Below are positions 3,149 through 40,172 of a stretch of 40,565 nt of DNA, piece after piece (position 1 is the first letter of the stretch; every line of letters starts with the position of its first letter). The stretch covers positions 1 through 40,565 of IMG/VR virus record IMGVR_UViG_3300047470_000151; one strand, written 5' to 3'. The position numbers and the translations under genes are program-made. This DNA is from a virus. Below the pieces are notes generated by a model. That model had not been told where the DNA came from. It did no database searches and saw nothing but the letters and a program-made list of their open reading frames with translations.

Positions 3149-3165
3149 GGCAATCGACTCGCTAG
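3149..3165 (+). promoter_or_regulatory. Family B motif, copy 1
   Basis: Exact GGCAATCGACTCGCTAG, ending 38 bp before the exonuclease start at 3204. Apart from this, no gene is seen in 3031-3203. Confidence 0.75.
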
Positions 3166-3203
3166 ATCCGGACTGACAAGACCCATATCGAAGGGGGCCC
3201 CAC

Positions 3204-4070
3204 GTGGGCACAGTCCGCACGATCTACAAGAGCGGGAGCCGGTTCTACGTCCACCCGGACCGGCGCGAGATCATCCACCCGGGCGTGACGTCCGTGATCG
3301 GGATGCTTCCGAAGCCGTTCCTACAGCGCTGGTCGGCGAACATGGCCGCTGAGTTGGCCGTCGACTCGATCGACTTCCTTGCCGACATGGCGAGCCGTGA
3401 CCGGGACGGCGCGATCAAGTACGTTGCCGGGGCCGCTCACCGGTACACGAAGCACCGTGCCGACGTCGGCAGCAAGGCACACGACCTGTTCGAGCGCATG
3501 ATTCGAACCGGGGCTTTCACGGCTCGCGACAGCAAGGGCGATTTCCTTGCCCACGTTCACCCGGACATGGAGCCGTACCGCGCGCACTTCGCTGAGTTCC
3601 TGAGCGTGGTCAATCCGGAACTCGTCCGCGCGGAAGACGTGGCCTGGTCGGACACTCACGGATACGCCGGGAGCTTCGACGCGATCCTTCGCGTGTGGCT
3701 CGACGACCAGGGCAAGCCGACTCCGGACCACTCCGGCGTGCCTCACCTTCTGATGGTCGACTGGAAGACCAGCAAGGGCACGTATCCCGACGTGGCGTTG
3801 CAGATGGCCGCGTACGCGCGCGCTGACTTCCTGATCGACCCCGAAGGCAACACGGAGCCGATGCCGGAATTCGACGGGGCCGCAGTTCTGCACATCACGC
3901 CGGACGGGTGGGAGTTCAAGCCGGTACGGATCGACGACGAAGTGTTTGAGATCTTCCTCAACCTTCGCCGGATCTTCGATTGGGACCGGACCGTATCGAA
4001 GTCCGTTCTCGGCCGTGCCATCGCGAAGGCTGTCCGGCTCGTCACCGGTACGCAGCGAAGGGCGAAGTGA
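3204..4070 (+). CDS. Cas4/RecB-like PD-(D/E)XK exonuclease
   Basis: A 288-residue nuclease of the Cas4/RecB C-terminal type. The catalytic pattern is visible: D159 in GSFDAIL, then D186-x-K188 in VDWKTSKG, and the QxxxY motif (Q200, Y204) that marks this branch. An early histidine (H93 in GSKAHDLF) fits the family's metal-binding His. Such phage enzymes degrade or resect DNA ends in recombination and replication. The GTG start has AAGGGGG 7-8 bases upstream and follows a family B motif by 38 bp. It opens the replication block. I see no four-cysteine iron-sulphur cluster, so it may be closer to RecB/AddB-like nucleases than to Cas4 proper. Confidence 0.82.
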   Translation: MGTVRTIYKSGSRFYVHPDRREIIHPGVTSVIGMLPKPFLQRWSANMAAELAVDSIDFLADMASRDRDGAIKYVAGAAHRYTKHRADVGSKAHDLFERMIRTGAFTARDSKGDFLAHVHPDMEPYRAHFAEFLSVVNPELVRAEDVAWSDTHGYAGSFDAILRVWLDDQGKPTPDHSGVPHLLMVDWKTSKGTYPDVALQMAAYARADFLIDPEGNTEPMPEFDGAAVLHITPDGWEFKPVRIDDEVFEIFLNLRRIFDWDRTVSKSVLGRAIAKAVRLVTGTQRRAK

Positions 4071-4085
4071 TGCGCGCGTACGCCG

Positions 4086-4102
4086 GGCAATCGACTCGCT
4101 AG
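4086..4102 (+). promoter_or_regulatory. Family B motif, copy 2
   Basis: Exact GGCAATCGACTCGCTAG, 16 bp after the exonuclease stop. A potential short hairpin (CTCGCT...AGTGAG, one G-U pair) overlaps it. The next gene starts 128 bp downstream, after copy 3. Confidence 0.75.
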
Positions 4103-4202
4103 CCCCGGAGTGAGACCGGGCAGGAAGCCGGAGCGTGGGCAGAGAGAAGACGCCGGAAGCGGCTGATGAGACATGCCCGCGTGACCCTTCCTCCCCGGTC
4201 TC

Positions 4203-4219
4203 CTCAATCGACTCGCTCA
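4203..4219 (+). promoter_or_regulatory. Family B motif, copy 3
   Basis: Matches the motif from CAATCGACTCGCT on, but starts CT instead of GG. It ends 11 bp before the ATG at 4231, closer than most copies, and touches the GGGGAG ribosome site. Confidence 0.65.
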
Positions 4220-4230
4220 GGGGAGACCGT

Positions 4231-4983
4231 ATGGCGCTCGACATTTGGAAGACCGACCCGGACAACAAGCCCGCTCCGCGTGAGGACTACTCCGACGACA
4301 CCGTTGGCCGGTTCCACTCCGGCTACATGGAGCACGACGAGAAGACCGGCAAGAACTACCCGGCTCCGCTCGACGAGTGGCGCGTGTCGACCGGCGACAT
4401 GACGGCTGCGAAGGCCGTTGCGGAACTGTTCGGGGGCTCTCCCGTCGAGAACGAGGAGAGCGCGAACGAGAACTTCATTGACGTCTACACGTCGGCGACG
4501 AAGGTTCCGGTCATCATCGAAGCCGACGGCATCGAGTCGGACATGAAGCAGTGGGTCAACGGGAAGCTCGTACACCACTGCACCGGGACGAAGTTCCTGA
4601 GTCACCCGAGCAATGACAAGCTCGTCGGCCAGTCGTGCGGGTGCCCGGAGCTGTTCGCGGAGCGTAAGCAGGCTGCGCGCGATTACATGGGGCCGAACCC
4701 TTCGATCTCGGTGACGTTCCGGCTTGCCGACGACGAGCCCCTTGGCAACTTCAAGTTCGTCACGGGCTCGTGGACGCTCGCGGCCGTTCTGCACGAAGCC
4801 GAGAACGCGCTTGAGACGGTCGGTGCGGGCGGTCCGGTGCTCGCGTACATCGAGCTTGAGCCCGTCTCGTACGTGGCGAAGAAGGGCAAGATGAAGGGTC
4901 AGACGGTCGAGTACACGAAGCCCGTCATCCGGATCGTCAAGCCCTTCGCTGCGGCCGTGACCGACGGGGACGGCGACGAGTGA
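4231..4983 (+). CDS. Conserved-type early protein of unknown function
   Basis: A 250-residue acidic protein. I do not recognise a fold with certainty. It contains a Cys/His cluster (HHCTGTKFL at about 116-124 and [10 protein letters not shown] about 20 residues later) that could bind zinc, then a beta-rich half ([33 protein letters not shown]). Position between an exonuclease and a resolvase/primase suggests a role in DNA replication or recombination, for example single-strand binding or annealing; that is inference from context only. The ATG at 4231 has GGGGAG 5-6 bases upstream. An upstream GTG (4135) would only add a translation of family B repeat DNA, so it was not used. Confidence 0.8.
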
Positions 4984-5150
4984 GCAAGCTCGACCAGGCG
5001 GAGCCGTACGACTGGCCGACAGCCCTTACCGGGGCCGAGGACGAGACGGTACGGGCTCCACTGTGGACATTCCCGCCGGAAGCCGCGAAGGCCGTCATTC
5101 ACGAGCGCCGCGTTCGGTTCGGTTTCGATGACGACGGCGACAGCAACTAG
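4980..5150 (+). CDS. Small acidic protein of unknown function (56 aa)
   Basis: Starts with a GTG that overlaps the previous stop codon (GTGA), so it is probably translated by coupling. The 56-residue product begins [13 protein letters not shown] and ends in an acidic tail (FDDDGDSN). No motif is recognised. It ends 9 bp before a terminator, closing the transcription unit that begins with the exonuclease. Confidence 0.7.
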
Positions 5151-5159
5151 GACGACTCA

Positions 5160-5196
5160 GGGCCGGACGGTTCCCAGTGCGGGCACTGTCCGGCCC
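5160..5196 (+). terminator. Terminator between the 56-aa gene and the resolvase
   Basis: Perfect 9-bp stem GGGCCGGAC/GTCCGGCCC (5160-5168 with 5188-5196), followed by TTC. Confidence 0.65.
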
Positions 5197-5208
5197 TTCG
5201 TTGCGTTC

Positions 5209-5231
5209 AGCCCCCTCAATTTGAGTGGGCT
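5209..5231. promoter_or_regulatory. Family A palindrome, copy 3
   Basis: One mismatch (C at 5214 where the core has A). It ends 13 bp before the resolvase start and touches its AGGAGG site, so a bound protein or a hairpin here would affect that gene directly. Confidence 0.85.
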
Positions 5232-5244
5232 AGGAGGGGTGACC

Positions 5245-5769
5245 GTGGCCAACCCGAACAAGAGCAAGGGGACGAAGTGGGAGAGCGACGTTCGCGACTA
5301 CCTGAACGAAGCTCTCGGGCTCGCCGTGAAGGATGCGACCGGCAAGCTCCGGCTCGTCGATATCTTCTCGCCGTTCAACGTGCGCCGTGCGGCTCAGGAA
5401 GGCGCGAAGGATGTCGGCGACGTGCACGCCGTGCCCTTCGTCCTTGAGTGCAAGGACGTTGCGCAACCGGCCGTTCCGAAGTGGCTCCGGCAGGCACGGA
5501 CCGAAGCCGGGCATGCGGGCTTCCCGTACGGGGTCGTCGTGCACAAGACGCGACGCGTGGGCACGCGACAGGGGCGCGTTCACTTCCCGGTCGACACGTG
5601 GACTCAGGTACGCCGTGCCCTGGGGCTGTCGACGGCCGACATGCGGAAGCGGTACGGCTTCACGCCGGTCACGCGCGGGCTCGACACGGACCGGTGGTAC
5701 GTCACGACGGACGTCGGGAACTTTGCCGACGTGCTCTTTGCCGTACGCGCACTTCGTGACGCTGAGTAA
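5245..5769 (+). CDS. PD-(D/E)XK endonuclease, Holliday junction resolvase-like
   Basis: A 174-residue nuclease with the archaeal-type resolvase pattern: E13 in KWESDV, D59 in VGDVHA, and E68-x-K70 in VLECKD. These would hold the metal ions of the PD-(D/E)XK fold. Actinophage replication blocks often carry such an enzyme next to the primase-helicase, where it would cut branched replication or recombination intermediates before packaging. The GTG at 5245 was chosen because AGGAGG lies 8-13 bases upstream. GTG 5239 would sit too close to that site, and an ATG at 5128 would read through the terminator and the palindrome. Confidence 0.78.
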   Translation: MANPNKSKGTKWESDVRDYLNEALGLAVKDATGKLRLVDIFSPFNVRRAAQEGAKDVGDVHAVPFVLECKDVAQPAVPKWLRQARTEAGHAGFPYGVVVHKTRRVGTRQGRVHFPVDTWTQVRRALGLSTADMRKRYGFTPVTRGLDTDRWYVTTDVGNFADVLFAVRALRDAE

Positions 5770-5838
5770 AAATTCGCCCGATGCCGGCACGTCGTGAATG
5801 CGGACAGAAACGGACATTGACTCTTCCGCGGTAGTCAC
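5759..5838 (+). repeat. Family C element, copy 1
   Basis: Starts on the resolvase stop codon and holds, in order, GCTGAGTAAA, ATGCCGGCAC, AAACGGACAT and, 8 bases on, CCGCGG. The 59-bp part from 5780 matches the copy near 32118 at 43 of 59 positions with no gaps. A direct repeat of CGGACA lies inside. It precedes the primase-helicase gene and a family B motif. Confidence 0.75.
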
Positions 5839-5861
5839 TTTCTGTGTTCACGGCTTTGCCG

Positions 5862-5878
5862 GGCAATCGACGCGCTCT
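5862..5878 (+). promoter_or_regulatory. Family B motif, copy 4
   Basis: GGCAATCGACGCGCTCT, ending 34 bp before the primase-helicase ATG. Confidence 0.75.
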
Positions 5879-5912
5879 CGCCGGAACGACGGAGAGAGAG
5901 GAGAAGCCGACC

Positions 5913-8369
5913 ATGGACTTCGCGCTGTTGCTTGACCGCTTTGCCGACGTGCGCGAGCACGCTGACGGGGGCTATCTCGCGACGTGCCCGGCACACAAGG
6001 ACTCACGTCCGTCGCTGCGTATCTGGCGCGGTGAGAACGGCAAGGTTCGCTTCTCGTGCCGTGCCGGGTGCGAGACGAATAACGTGCGGAAGGCCGCGCG
6101 GCTCAACTGGGCAGACCTGTTCGACACGACCGGCGAAGGACGGACGGTACCGGCGGAGAAGCCTGTACTCGTCGGCACGGCCCAGACGGCCGCGCTTGCG
6201 TCGTACGTGGACGCTACGTCGGTTGCCCTGGGTACCTGGGGCGAGACGTGGCCCGACGCTGCCCGGCGGTACGTCGCTGACCGCTTCGGGCTCGACGCGG
6301 ACACGGCCGCTGAATTGCTGTTGGGTGTCGACGACGGCCGCGTACCGGGGCTTGAGTACACGGACGCTCAGGGGACGTCACGTAACTACCGTTCGCGCCC
6401 CTTCCGTCAGTTCCCCCGGCTCACGGTGCCGCTGAACGACTTCCGGGGAATCCCCCGGGGCTTGCAGGGCCGTGACCTAACCGGCCGGTGCCCCGGACGG
6501 TGGCTGTCTCTGAGCAACCCCGACGGCATGCGTTGGGCACCGTACGGCGTTTTCAGGGGCTCCGGCGGGTACGGGGTCACCCTGGTCACGGAAGGACCCG
6601 GAGACGCGCTCACAGCCGTTTCTGTCGGCTACGACGCGGTTGCCGTCCGGGGTGCGTCACTCGTCAACAACCCTGAGCTTGTGCGGGAGCTTGCCGAAGG
6701 ACTCCGGGGCACTCAGGTGATCGTGGCCGGTGACAACGACACGGCCGGTAACGGGTTCACCGCGCGGCTTGTTGAGGGGCTGTCCGCTCACGGCATTGAG
6801 GTGTACGCCCTGAGCATCCCTCAAGCCGGTTGGGATCTCACCGACTGGCGAGTGTCCGACCCTGAGTCGTTCGCCGACGTGCTTCACCGTGCCGTGAAGA
6901 ACGCTCAGCCTGCCCGGTCGGCCGTCGACAGCGAGAACCACGCCGTGAGCACTGCGGTTGCCGACAGGACCGGGGCCGACTTCGTTTCCCGGGATCAGGG
7001 CATGGAAGCCGCGCGCATGCTCGGGGAGCTGACGAAGCGCTACGGCGAGACACACGCGATCAATGCGTACGCGCTCGTCGCATGGACCGACGGCCGGATC
7101 AAATACGCAATCGGTCTCGGCTTCTTCGTATGGAACGGCCGCACCTGGGACAAGAGCGCAACGAAGGTCCGGCAGGAAGTACACAGGATGGGGGCCGCGC
7201 TTGCCCTTGCCGGTGAGACGGCAGCCGCGAAGGGCTTCCTGAACACGACTGGTATCGACTCGCTCATGACTGAGCTTCGCTCCGTCCCGAGTGTGCACGT
7301 CGAAGCCGACGCGTTCGATGCGAAGCCGCACCTGTTGAGTTTCCGCAACGGGGTTGTCGACCTTCGGTCCGGCAGGCTCCGGAAGCACGACAAGAACGAC
7401 ATGCTCACGGTCTCGCTGCCGGTCGACTACGACCCGACGGCGAAGGCTCCCCGATGGGAACAGTTCCTCACTGAGATTTTCCCGGGAATGCCGGATCTCG
7501 TCGACTACATGCGTCGGCTGACCGGCTACGGAATCACGGGCAGCACGAGCGAACAGTGTTTTGCCGTGCTTCACGGAAAGGGGGCGAACGGCAAGAGTGT
7601 CTTCACGGACGTTCTGACGACGGTCTTCGGCCCGATCACGACGACGACCCCGTTCGCGACCTTCGAAGACAAGGGGAGCGGCGGCATTCCGAATGACCTT
7701 GCCGCGCTTCGCGGCGCTCGTCTCGTCATGGCTTCTGAGGGCGAGTCCGGCAAGGCCATGTCGGAAGCGGTGCTCAAACGCGTCACGGGCAAGGACAAGG
7801 TCACGGCACGCTTCCTGAGACAGGAGTTCTTCACCTTCGCGCCGACATTCCTGATCATGCTCGCCACAAACCACCGACCGAAATTCCGGGGGCAGGATGA
7901 GGGCTTGTGGCGACGCGTGAAGCTGATTCCATACACGCGCTACTTCGCCCCTCACGAGCGCGACTACAACCTTGACCGGAAGCTACTTGCCGAGACTCCC
8001 GGGATCGTGGCATGGGCCGTGCGTGGCGCTGTCGAGTGGCACAGGGACGGACTGAGAGACCCGGACGTGATCACGTCGGCAACACGGGAGTACCGGGAGA
8101 CGAGCGATGCTCTCGCCGGTTTCTTCCCGGGCGTGCTCATCCTCGCTGAGGACAACATCATGCCCGGCGACGACGCTTACAACGCTTACAAGGATTGGTG
8201 CGAAGCCGAAGGCTTGCAGTCGCGCGAGGTGTGGACGCGGCGCACCTTTTACAGCGCCATGGAAGAGCGCGGTATCGGAAAGAAGAAGACGAACAAGGGT
8301 GTCGCCCTGATCGGCGTGCGCGACGCGTCGGCACCGGATGCGGCCGGACCCGGGATCTTCGCTCAGTAG
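5913..8369 (+). CDS. Primase-helicase (CHC2/Toprim primase + D5-type SF3 helicase)
   Basis: An 818-residue fused replication protein. The N-terminus has a primase zinc site (C25, H28, C49, C53). The Toprim core follows: E227 in VTEGPGDALTA and D274-x-D276 in VAGDNDTAG, binding Mg for primer synthesis. A linker leads to a D5_N region and an SF3 ATPase: Walker A GKGANGKS at about 555-562, a Walker B-like VMASEGESG, and sensor motif MLATNHRP. It would unwind DNA and prime synthesis for the phage polymerase next door. The ATG at 5913 has GAGAGGAG about 10 bases upstream. An ATG at 5844 would translate the family B repeat and was rejected. Confidence 0.95.
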   Translation: MDFALLLDRFADVREHADGGYLATCPAHKDSRPSLRIWRGENGKVRFSCRAGCETNNVRKAARLNWADLFDTTGEGRTVPAEKPVLVGTAQTAALASYVDATSVALGTWGETWPDAARRYVADRFGLDADTAAELLLGVDDGRVPGLEYTDAQGTSRNYRSRPFRQFPRLTVPLNDFRGIPRGLQGRDLTGRCPGRWLSLSNPDGMRWAPYGVFRGSGGYGVTLVTEGPGDALTAVSVGYDAVAVRGASLVNNPELVRELAEGLRGTQVIVAGDNDTAGNGFTARLVEGLSAHGIEVYALSIPQAGWDLTDWRVSDPESFADVLHRAVKNAQPARSAVDSENHAVSTAVADRTGADFVSRDQGMEAARMLGELTKRYGETHAINAYALVAWTDGRIKYAIGLGFFVWNGRTWDKSATKVRQEVHRMGAALALAGETAAAKGFLNTTGIDSLMTELRSVPSVHVEADAFDAKPHLLSFRNGVVDLRSGRLRKHDKNDMLTVSLPVDYDPTAKAPRWEQFLTEIFPGMPDLVDYMRRLTGYGITGSTSEQCFAVLHGKGANGKSVFTDVLTTVFGPITTTTPFATFEDKGSGGIPNDLAALRGARLVMASEGESGKAMSEAVLKRVTGKDKVTARFLRQEFFTFAPTFLIMLATNHRPKFRGQDEGLWRRVKLIPYTRYFAPHERDYNLDRKLLAETPGIVAWAVRGAVEWHRDGLRDPDVITSATREYRETSDALAGFFPGVLILAEDNIMPGDDAYNAYKDWCEAEGLQSREVWTRRTFYSAMEERGIGKKKTNKGVALIGVRDASAPDAAGPGIFAQ

Positions 8370-8394
8370 CTCAACAACTCAACAACCACCCGAC

Positions 8395-8429: not shown

Positions 8430-8448
8430 TTTTCTGTTTGGGGGACCA

Positions 8449-10296: not shown

Positions 10297-10302
10297 CCCC
10301 CC

Positions 10303-10325
10303 AGACCACTCAATTTGAGTGGTCT
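10303..10325. promoter_or_regulatory. Family A palindrome, copy 5
   Basis: Perfect, extending to 25 bp (10302-10326). Arms are AGACC/GGTCT rather than AGCCC/GGGCT: both sides changed together, which points to selection for symmetry. Confidence 0.9.
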
Positions 10326-10530
10326 GAATACCGCTTCGTTCGGCATTCCGCACGACAGATCACAACAAGGTAACGGCCGTCGTTACCCGGTCCTCCCCAG
10401 GTATGAGCCCGTGTTGCGCATTGGCGCAGCGTGCATCCATGTCCGCTTTCACGAGTCGAATTCAGTGAACATGCAACGAAGTGCAGCCCCCAGCTAGGGC
10501 GGCACCTGAATTCGACGACGGCCTTGATCG

Positions 10531-10560
10531 AGCCCCGTCCGCATCACCCCGGACGGGGCT
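10531..10560 (+). terminator. Terminator within the region after the polymerase gene
   Basis: Perfect 10-bp stem AGCCCCGTCC/GGACGGGGCT with a 10-base loop. Closely similar stems recur at 21169 and 40188. Confidence 0.7.
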
Positions 10561-10660
10561 AGGTCAGTCGTTTCTCAAGTTCGCCATGCCATGGCGGAGC
10601 CATGCCCAAAACCGGGCGTGACCCCCGTCATTTAGCTGCATAACTGATCGGCCCCTTCCG

Positions 10661-10677
10661 GGCAATCGACTCGCTCA
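10661..10677 (+). promoter_or_regulatory. Family B motif, copy 5
   Basis: GGCAATCGACTCGCTCA, followed by a perfect 7-bp hairpin CTCGCTC/GAGCGAG overlapping its end. It ends 35 bp before the sigma-like gene. Confidence 0.75.
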
Positions 10678-10712
10678 CTCCCGAGCGAGACCGACCCGGA
10701 GGGACCAAAACC

Positions 10713-11642
10713 TTGTCTGCCACGCTCACGATTGACACTGTCCGCGAAGCCCAGGACAGCGGCCTTACCGCTACGACGGCCGTCATCAAAGCCACTGAGA
10801 GCCGAATAACCACCCTTGCCGACAAGGCTGCCCGTCGGCTCGCTCCGGCCGGTGGCGACCGCTACCGCGACCACCGTGACGAGTTCGAACAGGTCGGCCG
10901 TGTCGCCGTTTGGGAATCGCTGAGCCGCTTCCGGGGCGAGACCGTCGACAGCTTCTTTGCCTTCATGTACGCGACGGTCGAGCGGACGCTACTCGACGCC
11001 GTTCGGGACGCCCGGTACGGCAACGCCGGGGTCGACAAGGATGCGATCAAGGTCTTCATGTCCATGCTTGAGCGCGCCGACGGCGACCACGCCCTTGCCG
11101 AGAAGTTCGCTCAGTCCGTGCCCCCGAAGGGACAGAGACTCAGCGCCGACCGTGCCAACGCTGCCCGGCTCGCCTTCGAAGGTTCCCACTCGCTCGACGC
11201 TCCGCTTCCGACGGAAGACCCGACGGCTTCCGACTTCGGCACCTACGCCGACGCACTGTCGTACGAGTTCAGCTATCGCGGCCAGTACGACGTTCCCGAC
11301 GACCTGATTGAGCCCGACGACCTGAACCGGGAAGACCGGCGCGTGAAGCACGCGATCGTTCACGGGATTCTCGACGTCATGGGCGACGGTCAGCGCGCCG
11401 TGATCAAGCACAGCTTCGGAATCGACGGAGCCCTGACCTTCGGGCACGGCGACAGCGGCGACGACGACGCCCTTGCCGCGTTCCTCCGAATGGAAGTGAG
11501 GAACCTTCGTCCGGCACGCTCCAAGGGGCTCAGAGGCTTCGCAAAGCGCTACGTGAAGGCCGTTGCCCACAACGACGAGAAGGTTGCCGACGAGCTGACC
11601 GAAGCCGCTGAGCGCAACCTGAGCGCCGGTGGCCGGAAGTGA
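10713..11642 (+). CDS. Sigma-70-like protein, putative phage sigma factor
   Basis: A 309-residue protein with two parts of a sigma factor. Residues about 50-105 resemble region 2 (DEFEQVGRVAVWESLSRF, then FFAFMYATVERTLLDAVRDA), the helices that bind core RNA polymerase and the -10 element. Residues about 212-235 (ILDVMGDGQRAVIKHSFGID) resemble the start of region 4. The long insert between them (about 110-205) is unfamiliar. If real, it would redirect host polymerase to phage promoters; the family B motifs are natural candidates. The start is TTG, with GGAGGG about 11 bases upstream. The match is by eye and diverged, so a different helical protein is possible. Confidence 0.6.
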   Translation: MSATLTIDTVREAQDSGLTATTAVIKATESRITTLADKAARRLAPAGGDRYRDHRDEFEQVGRVAVWESLSRFRGETVDSFFAFMYATVERTLLDAVRDARYGNAGVDKDAIKVFMSMLERADGDHALAEKFAQSVPPKGQRLSADRANAARLAFEGSHSLDAPLPTEDPTASDFGTYADALSYEFSYRGQYDVPDDLIEPDDLNREDRRVKHAIVHGILDVMGDGQRAVIKHSFGIDGALTFGHGDSGDDDALAAFLRMEVRNLRPARSKGLRGFAKRYVKAVAHNDEKVADELTEAAERNLSAGGRK

Positions 11643-11953
11643 CACAGCCGCGCGGAACCGTGTGGAACCGTGCCGGACGGTACGGGCTCGCCTATTCGGT
11701 CGCCCTTGAGCTTCGGTCACGGCCATGCGATATCTGCGGCACGGAGCCGACTCCCGAGATCCCTCACGGGGTCGACCACTGCCACGGTACGGGGCGCGTC
11801 CGGGGCGTTCTCTGCCGCTCATGCAACTTGGCCCTCGGGCACTTCAAGGACGACCCGGAACGCGCCCGGAAGGCCGCTCTCTACCTCAGCAAGACGGACA
11901 CCGATTACCGGCGCGTCGACCGACAGGCAATCGACTCGCTACCCCCGGACTGA
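11639..11953 (+). CDS. Recombination endonuclease VII family
   Basis: A 104-residue member of the T4 endonuclease VII (His-Me finger) family. CDICG at about 30-34 and CRSC nearer the C-terminus supply the zinc cysteines, and VDHCHGTGRVRG is the catalytic His block. A FKDDPERA-type tail is also typical. It resolves branched DNA, and it is the second such enzyme here besides the PD-(D/E)XK protein at 5245. The GTG start overlaps the previous stop by 4 bp. The last eight codons run into a family B motif, so that repeat also encodes the end of this protein. Confidence 0.9.
   Translation: MTQPRGTVWNRAGRYGLAYSVALELRSRPCDICGTEPTPEIPHGVDHCHGTGRVRGVLCRSCNLALGHFKDDPERARKAALYLSKTDTDYRRVDRQAIDSLPPD
11926..11942 (+). 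promoter_or_regulatory. Family B motif, copy 6
   Basis: GGCAATCGACTCGCTAC, lying inside the 3' end of the endonuclease VII gene and ending 38 bp before the next ATG. Confidence 0.75.
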
Positions 11954-14232: not shown

Positions 14233-14799
14233 GTGAACGGGGAAGGATCGCCGACTGTCGAGCTTCGCGTTGAGGTGCCGTTGCCTCAGGAAGGGGGCGG
14301 GTGGGGGTGGCATGCCGACCGGCGAGTGTCTCCGGCCGGACATGAGCCCGTGTTCAGCCGACACGACCTGTTGCGCGTAATGCTGACGTACGGGGTGATC
14401 GTCGCAACGCTCTTCGCGACCGCCGGACCGTCGGCGTTCCGCGTCACAGCGTGGGAGATCCACACTCGCCGGACGGTCGGCGCGTACAGCTTCCGATGGG
14501 ACGCCGACCGGGGCCGGTACATGCCCGAAGGCGACCCGTTCGTGATCTGGGACAAGTACAGCGACCGGATTGCCGCCGGACTCAAGGGCGGACACATCCA
14601 ACCCGCTGCCGTCGCCGACGAGCCTTCACATACTCGTGTCAGTCACGAGCCCCAGGAAGCCCGCCAACGGCCCCAGGTCGAGCCCGGAACACTCCCGCAA
14701 CCGAAACCCCCACGGGCCAGTCAGGAACGCGCTCAGGACCGTGTCAGGGAGCGCTACAGCGAGCCGTCGACCGACGAGCCGCGAACCCGCTGCCGGTAG
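14233..14799 (+). CDS. Protein of unknown function with one hydrophobic segment (188 aa)
   Basis: A 188-residue protein. Residues about 40-70 include a hydrophobic run (LLRVMLTYGVIVATLFATAG) that could be a membrane anchor or a buried helix. A Trp/Tyr-rich middle (AYSFRWDADRGRYMPEGD) and a Pro/Arg/Gln-rich, probably disordered tail follow. The GTG at 14233 has GAGGGGG 5 bases upstream; starts at 14164 and 14206 are in frame but lack such a site. It is followed by a DUF2637 protein across a family B motif that begins on its stop codon. Similar pairs occur on Streptomyces mobile elements, but I do not assign a function. Confidence 0.65.
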   Translation: MNGEGSPTVELRVEVPLPQEGGGWGWHADRRVSPAGHEPVFSRHDLLRVMLTYGVIVATLFATAGPSAFRVTAWEIHTRRTVGAYSFRWDADRGRYMPEGDPFVIWDKYSDRIAAGLKGGHIQPAAVADEPSHTRVSHEPQEARQRPQVEPGTLPQPKPPRASQERAQDRVRERYSEPSTDEPRTRCR

Positions 14800-14815
14800 G
14801 CAATCGACCCGCTCA
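14799..14815 (+). promoter_or_regulatory. Family B motif, copy 7
   Basis: GGCAATCGACCCGCTCA, starting on the last base of the previous stop codon and ending 42 bp before the DUF2637 gene. Confidence 0.7.
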
Positions 14816-21289: not shown

Positions 21290-22852
21290 GTGAGACAGCT
21301 GACGTGCATCATCTACATCCGACTTAGCCGTGACTCCGACGAGTCCACTTCTGTAAAGAGCCAAACCGCAGCGTGCGAGGAATACGCGGAGCGCAACGGG
21401 TGGCGAGTGCTCTTCGTTGCGGAAGACGTAGACGTGTCCGGTGCCTCACGTCTCGAAGACCGTGAGGGCATGGGCAAGGTACTCGCGGCACTCGACAAGG
21501 CCGATTACGTGCTTGCCGCGAAGCTCGACCGGTACGCCCGGAGCGTGTTGGAGTTCTCGCGTCTCCTCAAGGCGACCGAAGACAACAGCGCCACGCTCAT
21601 CACTGCCGACGGCACGCTGACCCCCACAACTTCGAAGCTCGTCGTACACGTCCTTTCCGCATTCGCAGAGTTCGAGCGGGACCAAATCAGAACACGAATC
21701 CTCACCAGCAAGGAGCAGTTGCGCACCGAAGGCCGCTGGTTGGGCGGTCTCGCCCCGTACGGGTACCGAATCGTCAAGCGCGACGGCGGCAAATACCTTG
21801 AGATAGATGAGGACGCGGCGAAGGTTCTTCGCGACATTGCCGACAAGCTCATGAACAAGGGCAAGTCACTGACCAGCATCATGCATGACCTGAACACGCG
21901 CGGCGTTCTCTCCCCTGCCGATCACGCCCGGAAGCGCGACGGCCGGAAGGTACGCGGAACAAAGTGGAGCACCACAACGCTTCGCGACGTGCTCATTACG
22001 CCTGCCGTCCGTGGATACCTTTGCCAAGCCCCCGCAGACAAGCCCCGTTGCGCGGAAAACCTTGTGCCAGTCCTCAACGCAAAGGGCGAGCCCGTTCAGG
22101 TTGGGCCGGAACTCTTCGATGCCGCAACACACGACACGATTAAGGCCAAGATCAAGACTCGCAGCGTCGGTAAGGGCGCGCAGCGCTCGGGTAAAGCATT
22201 GCTCTTGCACGTGGCAGAGTGCTCGGATTGCTCGGGACCGATGTACCACCAAAAGCGAGTAGTCAAGGGAACGGACTACTCGACTTACCTTTGTCAGAGT
22301 GGTGTCGGCAAGAAGAGCGCGCACCCGTCGAACATTGTGAAGGCAAGCGGCATCAACCAGACCGTAGAAGCTGAGTTCTTGAAGCGGTTCGGTTTCTTCG
22401 GGTGGCTCCTGGAAGTCGTACACGAGGGACGCGACGTAGCGCGGGAGATCCGAGAGACGGAAACCAGCATTGACAACTTGAGCGGCAATCTCGAATCGCT
22501 ACCCGCCGGGGGCCGAAGCGCTAAGCGGATCACGGGGCAGATCGGGGAACTTGAAGAGAAGCTTGCCGCGCTTGAGAAGGAAGCCGCGAAGCACACTGAC
22601 GGGCCTAAGTCAGAGTGGGTGAAGACCGGGCGCACAGTGGCCCAGGAGTGGGCAGAGAGGGACACAGACGGCCGTCGAAGCATGCTCAAGGACTTCGGGG
22701 CGGTAGCGACCGTCACACCCCTCCCGAAGGCCGCTGAACGGCGCTACAGCGACGCACGGGTGACCGTCACCTTCGAGGGGCCGGAGTGGTGGCGCGACGA
22801 CCCGGCAGCGGGAGAGCTGGCCGCGATCGAAGCGATTGAGCTTGCCGCGTGA
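21290..22852 (+). CDS. int: Large serine integrase
   Basis: A 520-residue serine recombinase. The resolvase-type catalytic domain (1-140) starts MRQLTCIIYIRLSRD with nucleophile Ser13, and includes VDVSGAS and KLDRYARS, the conserved Asp-Arg-x-x-Arg. The recombinase domain (LGGLAPYGYRI onward), a zinc-ribbon region (AECSDCSGPM and YLCQSG) and a charged coiled-coil segment (about residues 385-450) follow. Such enzymes integrate the phage at one chromosomal attB without host factors and need a phage directionality factor for excision, not identified here. GTG 21290 has GAAGG 5-6 bases upstream; a TTG at 21278 lies inside a family B motif. Its length is near that of the R4/SV1/Joe size class rather than phiC31 Int, judged by memory of lengths only. 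Confidence 0.95.
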   Translation: MRQLTCIIYIRLSRDSDESTSVKSQTAACEEYAERNGWRVLFVAEDVDVSGASRLEDREGMGKVLAALDKADYVLAAKLDRYARSVLEFSRLLKATEDNSATLITADGTLTPTTSKLVVHVLSAFAEFERDQIRTRILTSKEQLRTEGRWLGGLAPYGYRIVKRDGGKYLEIDEDAAKVLRDIADKLMNKGKSLTSIMHDLNTRGVLSPADHARKRDGRKVRGTKWSTTTLRDVLITPAVRGYLCQAPADKPRCAENLVPVLNAKGEPVQVGPELFDAATHDTIKAKIKTRSVGKGAQRSGKALLLHVAECSDCSGPMYHQKRVVKGTDYSTYLCQSGVGKKSAHPSNIVKASGINQTVEAEFLKRFGFFGWLLEVVHEGRDVAREIRETETSIDNLSGNLESLPAGGRSAKRITGQIGELEEKLAALEKEAAKHTDGPKSEWVKTGRTVAQEWAERDTDGRRSMLKDFGAVATVTPLPKAAERRYSDARVTVTFEGPEWWRDDPAAGELAAIEAIELAA

Positions 22853-23166: not shown

Positions 23167-23183
23167 GGCAATCGACTCGCTCA
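23167..23183 (+). promoter_or_regulatory. Family B motif, copy 9
   Basis: GGCAATCGACTCGCTCA; first of a tandem pair 30 bp apart. Confidence 0.75.
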
Positions 23184-23196: not shown

Positions 23197-23213
23197 GGCA
23201 ATCCACTCGCTAG
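23197..23213 (+). promoter_or_regulatory. Family B motif, copy 10
   Basis: GGCAATCCACTCGCTAG, followed by AGTGAG that can pair with CTCGCT. Second of the pair, 130 bp before the tRNA, at the head of the packaging/late block. Confidence 0.75.
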
Positions 23214-26065: not shown

Positions 26066-26067
26066 TC

Positions 26068-26104: not shown

Positions 26105-27457
26105 GTGGGTTTCTGGTCTGACCTACTCCGCCGGGGCACGAGCCCCGCCCTTGCATCCGCTAAGGAAGCGCGGGCATGGGAGCCGTACGACCCGACGTTG
26201 TACGGCAACACTGCCGCTTCGGGTGAGCGCGTAACGACCACTCAGGCACTACAGGTGTCGGCCGTGTTCGGGTGCGTCCGGCTTCTGAGCGAGACGATTG
26301 CCACGCTGCCTATCTCGACGTACTCGCGTCGTGGTGGTGCACGCCGGGAGGTCATCTCTCCTGAGTGGCTTGAGTACCCGAACGCCGAACCCGGGGGCAT
26401 GGGTCGGATCGACATTCTGTCTCAGACTGTCCTGTCCCTCCTGCTTGAGGGCAACGCGTATCTCGCTGTCCGGTGGAACGGCCCGAACATCGTCGGTCTC
26501 GACGTGCTCGACCCGTCTCGGATCGTGCCGCACATGGTCACGATCGACGGGGTTCGCCGGAAGGTCTTCGAAGCGTTCGATATCGACGACGACGGCAATG
26601 AAGTCCTGTTGGGTTGGTTCACACCCCGGGACGTGCTTCACATTCCCGCGATGATGCTGCCCGGTGACTTCTCCGGGGTGTCCCCGGTGGCGTATGCGCG
26701 CGAGTCCATCGGGCTCGCTCTTGCCGCTCAGAAGTACGGGGCGCACTTCTTCCGCAATGGGGCTATGCCGTCGGCTGTGGTTGAGGTTCCCGGAGCCATG
26801 TCGGAAGACGGGCTCAGGCGTGCGCGTGACGCGTGGCGTGTCGCCAACTCCGGTGTCGAGAACTCAGGTCGCGTCGCTCTTCTCACGGAAGGCGCGAAGT
26901 TCTCGAAGGTCGCCATGTCGCCGGACGAAGCACAGTTCTTGGAGACACGGCAATTTCAGGTTCCCGAGATTGCGCGCATTTTCGGTGTGCCGCCTCACCT
27001 GATTTCCGACGCGACGAACTCGACTTCGTGGGGCTCCGGTCTCGCTGAACAGAACATTGCGTTTTCCATGTTCTCTCTGCGCCCGTGGCTTGAGCGGATT
27101 GAGGCGGGCTTCACCCGGCTTCTGTTCGCGGAGACGGCCGACCGCATGAAGTTCGTCAAGTTCAATCTCGACGAGATCAAGCGCGGGGCTCCGAAAGAGC
27201 GAATGGAGCTGTACTCACTCGGCTTGCAGAACGGCATTTACAGCATTGACGAAGTGCGGCATGCCGAAGACATGGCTCCGCTGCCCGACGGTCTCGGCTC
27301 GACCTATCGCGTGCCGTTGAACCTGGGGGCTGTCGACGACGAGCCGGAGCCTGAGCCGAAGCCGGACCCCACTCCCCCGACCGACGAGCCAGTGAATCCG
27401 CCGGACGAGAACGAGCCGGACGAAGAGCCGGACGACGAAGGGGGAACGGATGCCTGA
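26105..27457 (+). CDS. Portal protein (HK97 family)
   Basis: A 450-residue portal. The family order is visible: VSAVFGCVRLLSETIATLP near the start, LLLEGNAYLAVRW, VLDPSRIVPH, DVLHIPAMML, then LLTEGAKFSKV and FQVPEIARIFGVPPHLI, ending in a helical segment. The last 45 residues are an acidic Pro/Glu/Asp-rich tail (DEPEPEPKPDP...), probably disordered. It forms the dodecameric ring through which TerL loads DNA. GTG 26105 was chosen because a GTG at 26084 lies inside the palindrome. The protease start overlaps its end by 8 bp. Confidence 0.95.
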   Translation: MGFWSDLLRRGTSPALASAKEARAWEPYDPTLYGNTAASGERVTTTQALQVSAVFGCVRLLSETIATLPISTYSRRGGARREVISPEWLEYPNAEPGGMGRIDILSQTVLSLLLEGNAYLAVRWNGPNIVGLDVLDPSRIVPHMVTIDGVRRKVFEAFDIDDDGNEVLLGWFTPRDVLHIPAMMLPGDFSGVSPVAYARESIGLALAAQKYGAHFFRNGAMPSAVVEVPGAMSEDGLRRARDAWRVANSGVENSGRVALLTEGAKFSKVAMSPDEAQFLETRQFQVPEIARIFGVPPHLISDATNSTSWGSGLAEQNIAFSMFSLRPWLERIEAGFTRLLFAETADRMKFVKFNLDEIKRGAPKERMELYSLGLQNGIYSIDEVRHAEDMAPLPDGLGSTYRVPLNLGAVDDEPEPEPKPDPTPPTDEPVNPPDENEPDEEPDDEGGTDA

Positions 27458-29354: not shown

Positions 29355-29723
29355 GTGTCTTACGCGACGATTGAGGAAGTCCGCGCACTCGACGGGCTCG
29401 ACGACTCCGCGCTTTTCCCTGACAGCATGCTCAGCGAGGCAATCGACTTCTCGGTTGAGACGGTCGAAACGTACTGCGGCCAGAAGTGGGACACGGCAGA
29501 GAGCCCGACACCGGAAACGATCCGGTGGTGTGTGCGCACTCTCTCCCGGCAATACGTGCTCGACCACGTCTCCCGGATTCCGGATCGCGCCCTACAGCTT
29601 CAGTCGGAATTCGGGTCGATTCAGCTTGCGCAAGCCGGTGGTAACTGGCGTCCGACTTCCCTGCCGGAAGTGAACGCGAAGCTGAATCTGTACCGGGTCC
29701 GGCTCCCGTTCATTTTCCTGTGA
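29355..29723 (+). CDS. Head-tail connector (adaptor)
   Basis: A 122-residue, mostly helical protein of the HK97 gp6/SPP1 gp15-like adaptor type: MSYATIEEVRALDGLDD, then a helix with VETVETYCGQKW, a second with IRWCVRTLSRQYVLDH, and a C-terminal beta extension ending in LPFIFL. Adaptors bind under the portal to prepare for tail joining. GTG start with AAGGGGG 4-5 bases upstream. Its place just after the capsid gene supports the call. Confidence 0.82.
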   Translation: MSYATIEEVRALDGLDDSALFPDSMLSEAIDFSVETVETYCGQKWDTAESPTPETIRWCVRTLSRQYVLDHVSRIPDRALQLQSEFGSIQLAQAGGNWRPTSLPEVNAKLNLYRVRLPFIFL

Positions 29724-29733
29724 GGGGTCCGGG

Positions 29734-30168
29734 ATGGCGCTGATATTCGACACGAAGGTTGCCCTGTTCGACCGGCTCAAGGCGACCGTTCCGGCCGGAA
29801 CGCAATGCACCTTCGCGGAACAGGGCGACACCAATCGTCGTCGGCAAGTCTTCCTTGGCTCGACGACAGACGACGACATGCAGTCGGCAGCATTCCGGGA
29901 CGGCCCGAAGAAGCCGACGAACGTGACCGGCTACGTAGAAGTACACGCAATCAACATCACTCCCGGGGACCCGGTTGCCGCTGAGCGCGGAGTGTACGAG
30001 CTTCGCGACGCGATCACTGACGCGTGTTCCCAGGTCGACAGAGCGGCCGTGAAGGGGCTCGTCGACCTTCGCCCAGAGTCGGCCACGGTCGACACGGCGG
30101 AGACGACTGACGGGGCGTACAGCGCTCTCACAATCCGCGTCCGCGTCCGTGGGCGCGTCATGCAGTAG
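29734..30168 (+). CDS. Neck/tail-terminator-like protein
   Basis: A 144-residue protein starting MALIFDTKVALFDRLKA. Its layout of an N-terminal helix, beta strands (VTGYVEVHAINI), a central helix (GVYELRDAITDACSQVD) and a final strand pair (SALTIRVRVRGRVMQ) is that of tail-terminator proteins (lambda gpU/HK97 gp10-like fold group). It lies between the connector and the major tail protein, where a tail terminator or head-tail stopper is expected. I see no separate stopper gene, so this call could be either. Confidence 0.6.
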   Translation: MALIFDTKVALFDRLKATVPAGTQCTFAEQGDTNRRRQVFLGSTTDDDMQSAAFRDGPKKPTNVTGYVEVHAINITPGDPVAAERGVYELRDAITDACSQVDRAAVKGLVDLRPESATVDTAETTDGAYSALTIRVRVRGRVMQ

Positions 30169-32097: not shown

Positions 32098-32178
32098 CGC
32101 TCAGTAAACGATCACGCTTATGCCGGCACGGGGTGAACCTGTACATAAACGGACATAGGGAGTCCCGCGGGGGCCACT
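32096..32178 (+). repeat. Family C element, copy 2
   Basis: Begins at the end of the chaperone frame and shares ACGCT.AGTAAA, ATGCCGGCAC, AAACGGACAT and CCGCGG with copy 1 at equal spacing. In this copy ACGCTCAGT (32096-32104 region) is repeated inverted as ACTGAGCGT at 32176-32184. It precedes the tape measure gene. Confidence 0.75.
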
Positions 32179-34395: not shown

Positions 34396-34398
34396 TCC

Positions 34399-34421: not shown

Positions 34422-34438
34422 ACGAAGAGGGGGCTGGT

Positions 34439-35305: not shown

Positions 35306-35308
35306 GTC

Positions 35309-36301: not shown

Positions 36302-36322
36302 CCCACTCAATTTGAGTGGGTT
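36300..36322. promoter_or_regulatory. Family A palindrome, copy 13
   Basis: One mismatched pair; its first bases are part of the upstream TAG stop. A family B motif follows 3 bp later. Confidence 0.85.
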
Positions 36323-36325
36323 GAG

Positions 36326-36342
36326 GGCAAGCCACTCGCTAG
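36326..36342 (+). promoter_or_regulatory. Family B motif, copy 11
   Basis: GGCAAGCCACTCGCTAG, ending 18 bp before the ATG at 36361. Only copy inside the structural block. Confidence 0.7.
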
Positions 36343-36360
36343 AAGTAGAGGGGGGATGGC

Positions 36361-37461
36361 ATGCCGAATGCTCGATATGAAGTCGCTCAGATTGCCGCCC
36401 GGTCCGGTGAGGTTCTGGACGTCTTGCCGGTTACCGGAATCAGCTACAGCGAGACACTGAACGGGGCCGGTACGGCGACGATCGGTATCCCGTTGAAGGC
36501 TGCCGACCCTGACACGCTCGTCCCCGGCGAGAGCGCGCTTGCAGTGCTCCGGGGAGGCTCCCCCGTATGGGGCGGGATGCTGTGGACTGCCGACGCCGAC
36601 CTTGACGCCGGAACACTGACGCTGAATGCGTCCGGGTGGCACTCGTACTACTCGGCGTGCTACCTGGGCGGCTTCTTCCGGCTGTCCGACGGGGGTGACG
36701 GCCGACTTCTCGGCAGATGGCTGGGGTACGCGGGGAAGAAGGATCAAGCCCTTCTCTTGCGTGACTGGTTTGAGCGCGCGAACGACGACGACGGCATTGG
36801 TACCGACACGTCACGGCTCAACACGACCGGCCGTATCCGCTCCCGTGAGTGGGGCTTCTCCGAATTCAAGAACACGGCTGAGGCAATCAACGAGCTTGCC
36901 GACGAAGACGGGGGCTTCGATTTCCGATATGAGACCTACTGGCGCGACGCGTCCCACATCGGGAACCGGTTCATCATGTCGCCCCGGGTGTTCTCGACCT
37001 TCCCGGCACTGACTCACCGCGTCACGTGCAACGTCACCCGGGTCACGTACGACGGCAGCAAACTCGCAACCAGATCGTTCGCCTTCGGTGCCGACATGGG
37101 CACGGGCGTGAAGCCGTACGCGTGGAAGGCGAACACGCTCGACACGCCGACACTCGTTCAGGTCGCGACCTATGCCGACTTGAAGGCGACGGGGGATCTC
37201 ATCCCGAAGGCCAACGCGATTGCTGCCGTCGGCCGGTCACCAATCGCCATTCCCACGCTGACCCTGTACCCGGGCGTATTCGAGCCGTCGGCATTCCTGC
37301 CCGGCTCGTACGGAAGCGTTCAGATCGATTCGGGCTATGTGCGCTTGCTCGACGACTTCGTGTTGACGGAACGCCGCGTGGACGTAGACACGAACGGAAC
37401 CGAGACCGTCGCCCTTTCCCTTGCCAGTAAGGACGTATTCGAAAATGGCGATTCAAGCTAA
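36361..37461 (+). CDS. Tail hub/baseplate protein (minor tail)
   Basis: A 366-residue protein starting MPNARYEVAQIAARSGEVLD. The pattern VTGISYSETLNGAGTATIGIP, then GMLWTADADLDAGTLTLNASGWHSYY, resembles the N-terminal hub domains of tail-associated (gp27-like, Gp37-type) proteins of Streptomyces and Gordonia phages. The end (VLTERRVDVDTNGTETVALSL) is also typical of that family. It would form the ring below Dit. AGGGGGGATGG precedes the ATG. Confidence 0.78.
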   Translation: MPNARYEVAQIAARSGEVLDVLPVTGISYSETLNGAGTATIGIPLKAADPDTLVPGESALAVLRGGSPVWGGMLWTADADLDAGTLTLNASGWHSYYSACYLGGFFRLSDGGDGRLLGRWLGYAGKKDQALLLRDWFERANDDDGIGTDTSRLNTTGRIRSREWGFSEFKNTAEAINELADEDGGFDFRYETYWRDASHIGNRFIMSPRVFSTFPALTHRVTCNVTRVTYDGSKLATRSFAFGADMGTGVKPYAWKANTLDTPTLVQVATYADLKATGDLIPKANAIAAVGRSPIAIPTLTLYPGVFEPSAFLPGSYGSVQIDSGYVRLLDDFVLTERRVDVDTNGTETVALSLASKDVFENGDSS

Positions 37462-38068
37462 CGCGCTTCCTCCGTCGCTCATTGCGGAGCTGACCGAAAT
37501 GAAGCGTCGGCTCACTGCTCTTGAGCGGAAGCCGAAGCTCGGAAGCGTGAACGAACGGCTTCCGTTCGGCAACTTCCAGAGTCCTTCGCTTGAGGGCACA
37601 GAGGGGGCCGAGTACACACACGCTCTCGGCGCGATCAATTCAACCGGACTGAATCAGCCGGTGCTTCTCGTCTCTGTTCCGTTCAGTATTCCGTGGGGCG
37701 CGAGTGCGGCTCTCGACGTGTCCGTGACCCTGTGGATTCGGGACATGATCACGAACGGCAAGACGGCGGAACTCACGATCACGAAGGCCAACGACAACAA
37801 CGGCCTCACACGTTCGATCACCTACGCATGGCGACACCCTCAGCCGATCGGCTTCGACGACGGACAGAGCTGGAAGGGCTTCGCCATTGAGTACCACGTG
37901 AACAAGCGCGTGACCTACAACGGCGAGTCGCTCACGGTCGGCATGGGGAGCCCTACGTTCATCGTCGGCGTGCCGGACGGCACATACCTTGAGGAAGCCG
38001 ACGACGGCAACCCGCGCATTGCCGGTGTGCTCACGCCGACGGACGGGGGGCCGGTGGAATGGGGCTGA
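37445..38068 (+). CDS. Tail-tip protein of unknown detail (207 aa)
   Basis: A 207-residue protein starting MAIQANALPPSLIAELTEMKRRLTALERKPK, an N-terminal helix that may trimerise, followed by a beta-rich body (FGNFQSPSLEG, VLLVSVPFSIPWGASAALDV). This layout of a short coiled coil plus beta domain is frequent in minor tail proteins. It overlaps the previous gene by 17 bp and the next by 10 bp. A TTG at 37421 is in frame but less likely. Confidence 0.75.
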   Translation: MAIQANALPPSLIAELTEMKRRLTALERKPKLGSVNERLPFGNFQSPSLEGTEGAEYTHALGAINSTGLNQPVLLVSVPFSIPWGASAALDVSVTLWIRDMITNGKTAELTITKANDNNGLTRSITYAWRHPQPIGFDDGQSWKGFAIEYHVNKRVTYNGESLTVGMGSPTFIVGVPDGTYLEEADDGNPRIAGVLTPTDGGPVEWG

Positions 38069-38343
38069 GCAACCTTGCCGGGGGTGCCGAGATCGTCGGC
38101 GGAGCCGCGCTCTTCCTCATGCTCGTCTTCCGGCAGATCAAAACCGGCGCAAAGGCCGCGTGGCGCGAGGAAGCCGAAGCACAGACAGCGAAGGCGGCAC
38201 GGCTTGCCGACGACGTGTCCCGGCTCATCGAAGAAGTCCGGCTCTTGCGCGACGAGAACGGCGCACTCCGTGAAGAAGTACGAGCCCTTCGCGCTGAGAA
38301 CCGTGAGCTTCGCGAACACATTGACACTCTGCTCGGCAACTAG
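38059..38343 (+). CDS. Membrane-anchored coiled-coil protein (94 aa)
   Basis: A 94-residue protein with one N-terminal transmembrane helix (AEIVGGAALFLMLVF) followed by about 65 residues of heptad-rich coiled coil (LADDVSRLIEEVRLLRDENG...LREHIDTLLGN). It lies between tail-tip and fibre genes, yet its form is that of a membrane protein, such as a holin partner, spanin-like or superinfection factor. It overlaps the previous gene by 10 bp. Role uncertain. Confidence 0.7.
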   Translation: MGLSNLAGGAEIVGGAALFLMLVFRQIKTGAKAAWREEAEAQTAKAARLADDVSRLIEEVRLLRDENGALREEVRALRAENRELREHIDTLLGN

Positions 38344-38351
38344 GGGGCCCC

Positions 38352-40124
38352 ATGAGCACGCCGACGGAGACATACCCGCTGCCGTCGAGCATTCGCACAG
38401 TGAAGGTGAAGGGGCAGTACCGGGGGCCGGACGGACGCGGCTTGCAGGGAACCGTGACCTTCTCAGGTCCGGGACTCCTCACGTTCCCGGAAGCGGATCT
38501 CTTCATAGCCGGACCGGTCGTCGCACGGCTCGACGAGAACGGCGCCTTCGAAGTCGTCCTTCCGGCCACGGACAACCCCGACATGAACCCGTCGGACTGG
38601 TCGTACACGGTGAAGGAGAATCTGACCGGCGTGACCGGCGCGCGCACGTACGCGCTTCTCCTTCCGGCGGACACTCCCGGCGGAGAGATCGACCTTGCTG
38701 ACGTTGCTCCGGCTGACCCGACTACGCCGACGTACGTTCCCGTTCCGGGACCCCAGGGCGTGAAGGGCGACACCGGAGCGAAGGGCGACACGGGTACGGC
38801 AGGCGCGAAGGGCGACACGGGCGCGACGGGTGCGCCAGGTGCCGCCGGGGCTCCGGGCGTGGTGCAGTCGGTCAACGGCAAGTCGACGGCTGCCGTGTCG
38901 GTTACTCTCGCTGACGTGGTCACGGCCGGTGGCACGGCTACGGGAGCCGTGAGCCTGAGCAACGCTTCCGCCGTGGCACTGTCCATGCAGGGCAACGGGA
39001 CCACGAACCTTGTCGAGTGGAAGAACGCTTCCGGAGTCGTGGCAACACGCATCGGATCGAACGGCAACCTAGTTGCTCAGGGTGCCTCGTACCTTGTCGG
39101 CGGGATTCAGCTTGGCTCGACGTCCACCGATTTCGGTGGGGGTGCCGGTGCCATTCTGGGCATCGACGATGCTTCGACCGTGCCGACCACGAACCCGACG
39201 GCCGGAGTCGTCGTGTACTCACAGGGTGGCGTGCTCAAGGTCCGGCAGGCAGACGGCACGGTAATTCAGGTGGCGGCCGGTGGTACCGGCGCCGTGTCGT
39301 CCGTGAACGGCTACACGGGCGTTGTGAGCCTTACGGCTGCCGATGTAAGCGCGCTCGCTGCGAGCGTGAGAGGTGCAGCGAACGGCGTTGCCTCACTGGA
39401 CGCTTCGTCGCTCGTTCCGGTCGCGCAACTTCCTTCGCTGTCGTCGACCTACGTTGCCGTATCGACGCGCGGAGCCGCGAGCGGTGTTGCGACGCTCGAC
39501 AGTACAACCCGGCTGCCGATTGCTCAGGTTCCGACGGTGCTGCCGAAAAACTCATGGACTCCGCAGGCTCTCGGCTTTCAGGCATGGTCGTGCGACCCGG
39601 GCGGGGTTGCCAACCCGGCGGCGAAGTACCTGACTCCTCAGCGCCTCTACCTGACCGGCTTCAACATCACGGAATCCACAACGGTCAGCAACGTCGTCAT
39701 GTTCGCGCGCGGCTATGGCGGAGTGACGACCAACCGGTACATGGCCGGTATCTACCGGGAAGACGGAACCCGGGTCGTCGCGTCAAGCAATATCGCGCTC
39801 ACCATGGCCGGACAGGAGACCGGCGCACTGACCGGCATGGCGACGAACCATATCGGCGCGGTACCGATCGCGATCACGTCGACCATGCTGACCGCCGGAC
39901 GCTATTGGGTGGCGTGGCTCATGACGACTGGCGGCACGGCAGATTTCTCGTTCTATCACGTGCAGAACGAAGCCCCGATTGCGACCGCCAACTTCGCCAT
40001 GACGACAAGCCCGTTTGCCCGTGCGTGGTACCTCGCGGCCCAGTCGACGTTGCCGACGACCGTGAGTCAGACGAACACGGCCGCTCTCGCCGACCACGAC
40101 ATTCCGATTATCGCTCTCGCCTAG
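38352..40124 (+). CDS. Tail fibre with collagen-like repeat
   Basis: A 590-residue fibre. After an N-terminal beta domain (1-130), a collagen-like run of about 12 Gly-x-y triplets (GVKGDTGAKGDTG..., about 134-170) forms a likely triple helix. A middle section with repeated ASGVATLDS/ANGVASLDASS-type units links to a C-terminal domain (about 400-590) that probably binds the host. It is the last gene before the lysis cassette, as expected for the receptor-binding fibre. AGGGGGC lies close before the ATG. Confidence 0.9.
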   Translation: MSTPTETYPLPSSIRTVKVKGQYRGPDGRGLQGTVTFSGPGLLTFPEADLFIAGPVVARLDENGAFEVVLPATDNPDMNPSDWSYTVKENLTGVTGARTYALLLPADTPGGEIDLADVAPADPTTPTYVPVPGPQGVKGDTGAKGDTGTAGAKGDTGATGAPGAAGAPGVVQSVNGKSTAAVSVTLADVVTAGGTATGAVSLSNASAVALSMQGNGTTNLVEWKNASGVVATRIGSNGNLVAQGASYLVGGIQLGSTSTDFGGGAGAILGIDDASTVPTTNPTAGVVVYSQGGVLKVRQADGTVIQVAAGGTGAVSSVNGYTGVVSLTAADVSALAASVRGAANGVASLDASSLVPVAQLPSLSSTYVAVSTRGAASGVATLDSTTRLPIAQVPTVLPKNSWTPQALGFQAWSCDPGGVANPAAKYLTPQRLYLTGFNITESTTVSNVVMFARGYGGVTTNRYMAGIYREDGTRVVASSNIALTMAGQETGALTGMATNHIGAVPIAITSTMLTAGRYWVAWLMTTGGTADFSFYHVQNEAPIATANFAMTTSPFARAWYLAAQSTLPTTVSQTNTAALADHDIPIIALA

Positions 40125-40145
40125 CCCACTCAATTTGAGTGGGCT
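40123..40145. promoter_or_regulatory. Family A palindrome, copy 14
   Basis: Perfect 23 bp, starting inside the fibre gene's TAG stop. Confidence 0.9.
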
Positions 40146-40155
40146 GGAGTCGACA

Positions 40156-40172
40156 GGCAACCGACTCGCTAG
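40156..40172 (+). promoter_or_regulatory. Family B motif, copy 12
   Basis: GGCAACCGACTCGCTAG, with TCGCT/AGTGA able to pair. A terminator lies between it and the endolysin start, unlike the other copies. Confidence 0.75.

Follow-up and report, generated by a model that had tools for sequence, protein, structure and literature searches.

The window, by which we mean the whole 40,565-bp IMG/VR virus record analysed here, keeps the gene order of phiC31 when its proteins are aligned to those of that phage (repressor, gp1 exonuclease, RDF, primase, DNA polymerase, gp12, gp13, gp25, HNH, terminase and head-tail genes); its integrase was recognised via PHROG. Judged by these alignments, it is a phiC31-like phage, distantly related to phiC31 itself. 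Its ends (1-127 and 40439-40565) form an exact 127-bp repeat; the record is a circular assembly opened inside the endolysin region, not at cohesive ends. A direct repeat of 59 nt, 73% identical, lies before the primase (5781-5839) and before the tape measure gene (32120-32178).

A sequence-only reading of the window had reported twelve same-strand copies of a 17-bp motif, and the set holds up: eleven match the 17-mer with at most three mismatches on the + strand, against 0.10 matches expected from shuffled sequences, and none of 100 shuffles reached twelve. The twelfth copy, CTCAATCGACTCGCTCA at 4203, departs from the 17-mer at four positions and was counted as a member because it differs from the variant at 10661 at only two. 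The sole extra match with three mismatches, on the - strand within the portal gene (26286-26302), is probably due to chance; the asymmetry and single orientation ascribed to the motif are both borne out.

Once gene starts were corrected by protein alignment and reading, the seven copies described as close to start codons were indeed found 11-42 bp upstream of them. These putative promoter cores, all on the + strand, precede the gp1 exonuclease (core 3149-3165, gene start 3204, predicted transcription start 3175), the RDF (4203-4219, 4231, 4229), the primase (5862-5878, 5910, 5888), the sigma factor gene (10661-10677, 10713, 10687; this copy carries the dyad CTCGCTC/GAGCGAG), and the homologues of gp13 (11926-11942, 11981, 11952), gp25 (14799-14815, 14858, 14825) and gp46 (36326-36342, 36361, 36352, the last without a pyrimidine-purine step). 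The remaining copies, on the same strand, lie more distally upstream of the RDF (4086-4102, 130 bp before its start, predicted transcription start 4112), before the integrase (21264-21280, predicted start 21290), as two tandem copies upstream of tRNA-Thr (23344) and the late genes (23167-23183, predicted start 23193 without a pyrimidine-purine step, and 23197-23213, predicted start 23223), and before the endolysin region (40156-40172, predicted start 40182). The degenerate copy at 4203 is uncertain as a promoter because a ribosome site sits between it and the RDF start codon; that site falls within the part predicted to be untranscribed, which counts against a promoter there.

The element in phiC31 and its relatives

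Searches with the window motif gave no matches above chance in phiC31 and phiBT1; the core has diverged too far for that, and it took a de novo search for strand-biased repeats to recover a homologous element in the related phages. In phiC31 the element (GTTGCCGACTCCCT) has 14 copies on the + strand and none on the - strand, in phiBT1 (CGTAACCGACTCCC) 13 and none; similar elements occur in Euratis, Lilbooboo, Shawty and Vash, GGAATCCCCTCCGCT is the element of Sebastisaurus, Heather and RemusLoopin, and TG1, Rowa and Samora each have their own version. Streptomyces is the host genus of the cultured relatives found, and the core sequence differs even among phages sharing a host genus. Dozens of uncultured phages also carry a homologous element; an exact 15-mer search of IMG/VR matched 57 stretches, mostly by chance, with contig 3300047317_000290 (three matches) as a true relative.

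Once refined, the set of each phage comprises 8-13 strong copies, almost all of them on the coding strand; similarly strong matches on the opposite strand are few or absent. The genes downstream are gp1, gp2, RDF, primase, methylase or polymerase, sigma, gp13, gp25, gp46, dNMP kinase and the tRNA/late position; not every phage has the element at every one of these positions, yet it serves the same genes in seven annotated phages, and no copy was found before the repressor, TerS, capsid or tape measure genes of the annotated phages checked. Core end and start codon are mostly 30-44 bp apart (range 11-160 bp). The window thus shares with phiC31 a homologous core, orthologous gene positions, a common strand and many copies, including the late position, where the pair at 23167/23197 has its phiC31 counterpart at genome positions 40565-40585.

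That phiC31 copy, found independently by the de novo search, is also an annotated one: it equals positions 174-194 (TCAGGTTGCCGACAACCTTCA) of the phiC31 cos region record (GenBank X91149.1), which are labelled as a "late lytic" promoter, the record stating no mapping method. The same record annotates CIR7 (CCTACTCACGTGAGTAG) and CIR8, two "conserved inverted repeats", as repressor sites. Their counterparts in the window are palindromes (AGCCCACTCAATTTGAGTGGGCT), present in 13 copies between 1015 and 40151, mostly right after stop codons. The two annotations point to two repeat families with separate jobs, one as repressor site and the other as promoter. The position of the palindromes after genes would also fit terminators without U-tails (compare the title of Ingham 1995).

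The phiC31 lytic promoters resemble the window element in gene positions, strand, multiplicity, a CGACTC-N-CT-like core and start-site spacing, and differ from it in the diverged core (GGCAATCGACTCGCT against GGTTGCCGACTNCCT). The promoter class is therefore known from phiC31, and the window holds a new sequence variant of it in an uncultured phage. The phiC31 lytic promoters have been described as phage-activated, and promoters of the phiC31 early region were reportedly treated by Ingham et al. in 1993; to our knowledge, the activator was left open. A literature text search, beyond whose reach the primary phiC31 papers lay, found no paper describing these promoters, and we know of no publication of the gp12-promoter pairing or of the start-site rule given below.

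Start-associated sequences of cluster K mycobacteriophages, one of the options raised earlier, likewise occur as many same-strand copies before genes; their distance from the start codon is 3-9 bp, they extend the ribosome site, and their extended forms (ESAS) contain putative promoters (PMC11373665). The phiC31-type element does not fit that description: it lies farther upstream, at 11-160 bp (33-44 bp for the majority), and the predicted transcription start falls between the element and most genes.

Predicted start sites and pairing around the element

A second conserved spot, 11-15 bp past the core, is present in all three main element classes. A pyrimidine-purine step occurs at +11/+12 in 75% of 368 distinct copies, as opposed to 5-35% at the neighbouring offsets tested, and at the predicted place in ten of the twelve window copies. 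An ATG with an open frame sits exactly at +12 in 13 cases, a peak among nearby offsets; annotated starts at this offset include the RNA ligase and gene 43 of Sebastisaurus and the HNH gene of Shawty. The window integrase has a GTG at 21290, exactly at +12 of its element, and in Vash (L065, 38966-39034) the same offset is taken by an in-frame ATG that lies 42 nt ahead of the annotated integrase start. Both integrase starts probably need correction, to GTG 21290 in the window, where the gene would be leaderless, and to the upstream ATG in Vash. GTG at +10 was counted in 28 cases, which probably stem from the GTGAG letters around the start site.

From the pyrimidine-purine step and the start codons at +12 we infer that transcription starts at +12, 26 bp after the first base of the motif. 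Numbered from that transcription start, the promoter core would extend from -26 to -12 and lack a -35 box; conservation weakens towards -7, and there is none from -45 to about -30. An alternative in which the second box, TGAGA, served as a -10 box with a start near +22 was dropped on account of the several start codons at +12.

The sequence-only reading had further proposed that many copies are followed by a short hairpin, CTCGCT with AGYGAG downstream, showing G-U or matched changes. This proposal survives in part. The stem, in which CTC of the core pairs with GAG of the start region, is complete at 4086, 10661 and 23197 and broken at 3149, 5862 and 14799, and compensatory changes are confined to the copy of the sigma gene. 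Among 225 other distinct copies, the phage-variable stem position is paired with its partner in a fraction of 0.28, against 0.32 expected; with the partner unmatched there and a flexible test giving p=0.05, a hairpin common to all copies was rejected. Wider leader-hairpin pairing at the copies was not clearly above that at control gene starts. At the sigma gene, the dyad exceeds swapped controls (5.9 vs 4.9 and 6.1 vs 4.9 positions paired in a row, a level reached by none of 500 permutations), with examples such as CTCACTC/GAGTGAG and CTCTCAC/GTGAGAG beside the CTCGCTC/GAGCGAG of the window; a dyad with compensatory change (10661-10700) is conserved only at this copy. With transcription starting where predicted, this dyad could form in DNA or read-through RNA only, and it possibly serves autoregulation.

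Hairpins in read-through transcripts that sequester the Shine-Dalgarno sequence are familiar from T4 gene e. For such hairpins native pairing exceeded that of swapped arms; they are not claimed here, since the excess is comparable at other gene starts in Vash and partly present there in phiC31.

The gp12 sigma factor

The proposed reader of the element is the gp12 homologue, a sigma-70 family sigma factor encoded at 10713-11642 on the + strand. It matches Pfam Sigma70_r2 (PF04542) with 26.1 bits against a cut-off of 24, and is assigned to PHROG 15865 (RNA polymerase sigma factor) with E 3e-104. A profile of 52 sequences, compared with PDB, matches region 2 of SigB and FliA and region 4 of RpoD, the RpoD region 4 matches being weak (E 0.0004-0.01); an AlphaFold model of gp12 (mean pLDDT 86.8) retrieves almost only sigma chains and initiation complexes. 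As far as profile and predicted structure can tell, region 4 and the overall fold are those of the sigma-70 family. Searches for prophages carrying the window sigma in genome contigs, and searches of plasmids and of Rfam, returned nothing relevant. The phiC31-type gp12 (L001, 29958-31148) has an insertion of ~95 residues between regions 2 and 4, which is absent in the window, Rowa and Shaeky types.

Each phage examined that has the element also has gp12, the phages having been drawn from gp12 carriers or gp12 having been found in them. In 74 IMG/VR loci holding the gp12 gene, the gp12 start is preceded by a repeated same-strand 16-mer at a median distance of 52 nt (interquartile range 49-55), and 80% of these loci reach a strand-biased copy score of at least 5, compared with 16% of random segments from the same loci. 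The gap between DNA polymerase and sigma genes (10297-10660 in the window, 29484-29900 in phiC31), 420-480 nt long, holds strongly conserved non-coding DNA in relatives (e.g., GCACGACGGACCGGAACTGATCA, GGTTACGCCTTCGA), which may serve as the first sigma promoter, as a leader RNA or as an origin.

Across 63 phages, element distance correlates with sigma distance (r=0.78); controlled for DNA polymerase distance the correlation is 0.66, against 0.18 for the reverse control. Region 4 retains 0.58 after control for region 2, and region 2 retains 0.35 after control for region 4. Permutation gave p <=0.002, which serves as a guide only since the phages are related; the contrast between the correlations carries the argument. 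On this comparative evidence, changes in sigma have gone along with changes in the promoter in about 60 related phages, and element divergence tracks that of the sigma factor, above all its region 4, far better than that of DNA polymerase.

Proposed mode of action and alternatives

Among the options offered for the motif, that of a phage promoter read by a phage sigma factor is well supported by the annotated phiC31 late promoter, the sigma gene and the co-divergence of element and sigma, and we consider it very probable that the motif is a phage-specific lytic promoter core read by gp12 with the host core polymerase. A first transcript would yield a little gp12, which would direct host core RNA polymerase to the element, a stretch of 15-16 bp spanning roughly -26 to -12, and transcription would begin at the purine of the pyrimidine-purine step. 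The copy before the sigma gene would provide positive feedback on gp12, other copies would drive early, replication and integrase genes, and the tandem pair before the tRNA would drive the late genes. In the lysogen, the repressor would act at the separate palindromic CIR sites, its own gene having no copy of the element. The early copies stand ahead of genes located upstream of gp12, so gp12 must initially be expressed by other means. T4 gp55 and SPO1 gp28 are phage sigmas that redirect host core polymerase to phage-specific promoters, and gp12 is proposed here as another with dedicated promoters; it differs from them in having both regions 2 and 4 and in the contiguous promoter proposed for it, from -26 to -12. 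Such a core, with no -35 box, is unusual for a sigma factor with region 4, and this is a point against gp12 as the reader.

Reading of the lytic promoter by a host sigma factor with some other phage activator, or by a modified host polymerase, would account for the early genes upstream of gp12 that bear the element, and gp12 binding is itself a proposal; we nevertheless regard this as unlikely, for the element phages, as sampled here, all have gp12, the element tracks gp12 and especially its region 4 after control for DNA polymerase, and the core differs between phages of the same host genus. If the motif were instead an RNA leader element (a stability hairpin, antitermination or translation control), with the promoter elsewhere, the stem-like complementarity at some copies and the conserved dyad at the sigma gene would be explained, but a variable stem position left unmatched by its partner at 225 other copies, leader pairing not clearly stronger than at control gene starts, start codons at +12 that leave no room for a leader, and the annotation of the phiC31 copy as a promoter together make this quite improbable.

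That the repressor binds the motif as a one-directional stoperator or operator, as the many intergenic same-strand copies near gene starts had suggested, is harder still to credit: stoperators and the phiC31 CIRs are also repeated in intergenic positions genome-wide, but the CIRs are palindromic, the phiC31 repressor sites (CIR7 and CIR8 among them) correspond here to the 13 palindromes of the other repeat family, and the motif has no symmetry. Almost no weight falls on a sigma-54-type -24/-12 promoter or one for a T7-type single-subunit polymerase. The window core GGCAATCGACTCGC does fit GG-N10-GC at nearly the right distance from the predicted start, and a core contiguous with the initiator is found in T7-type promoters; yet relatives do not keep the GC (Rowa has AC there and phiC31 CC), the sigma factor present belongs to the sigma-70 family, and the + strand ORFs large enough are all assigned other functions, the rest being too short for a single-subunit polymerase.

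Returning to gp12 as the reader, we add to the known phiC31 promoter class its assignment to gp12, a rule for start sites and the co-divergence. We think it fairly likely, with less assurance than for the window itself, that gp12-type sigmas direct a compact promoter (conserved from -26 to -12, with a pyrimidine-purine start, no -35 box and some leaderless genes), that among phiC31-like phages the joint divergence of sigma and promoter has produced several distinct specificities, and that the dyad at the sigma gene's copy may serve autoregulation. The sigma factor is thereby put forward as the probable activator throughout the phage group and start sites are predicted at single-base resolution, both open to direct testing; the several sigma and promoter sequence classes could give orthogonal expression switches for Streptomyces.
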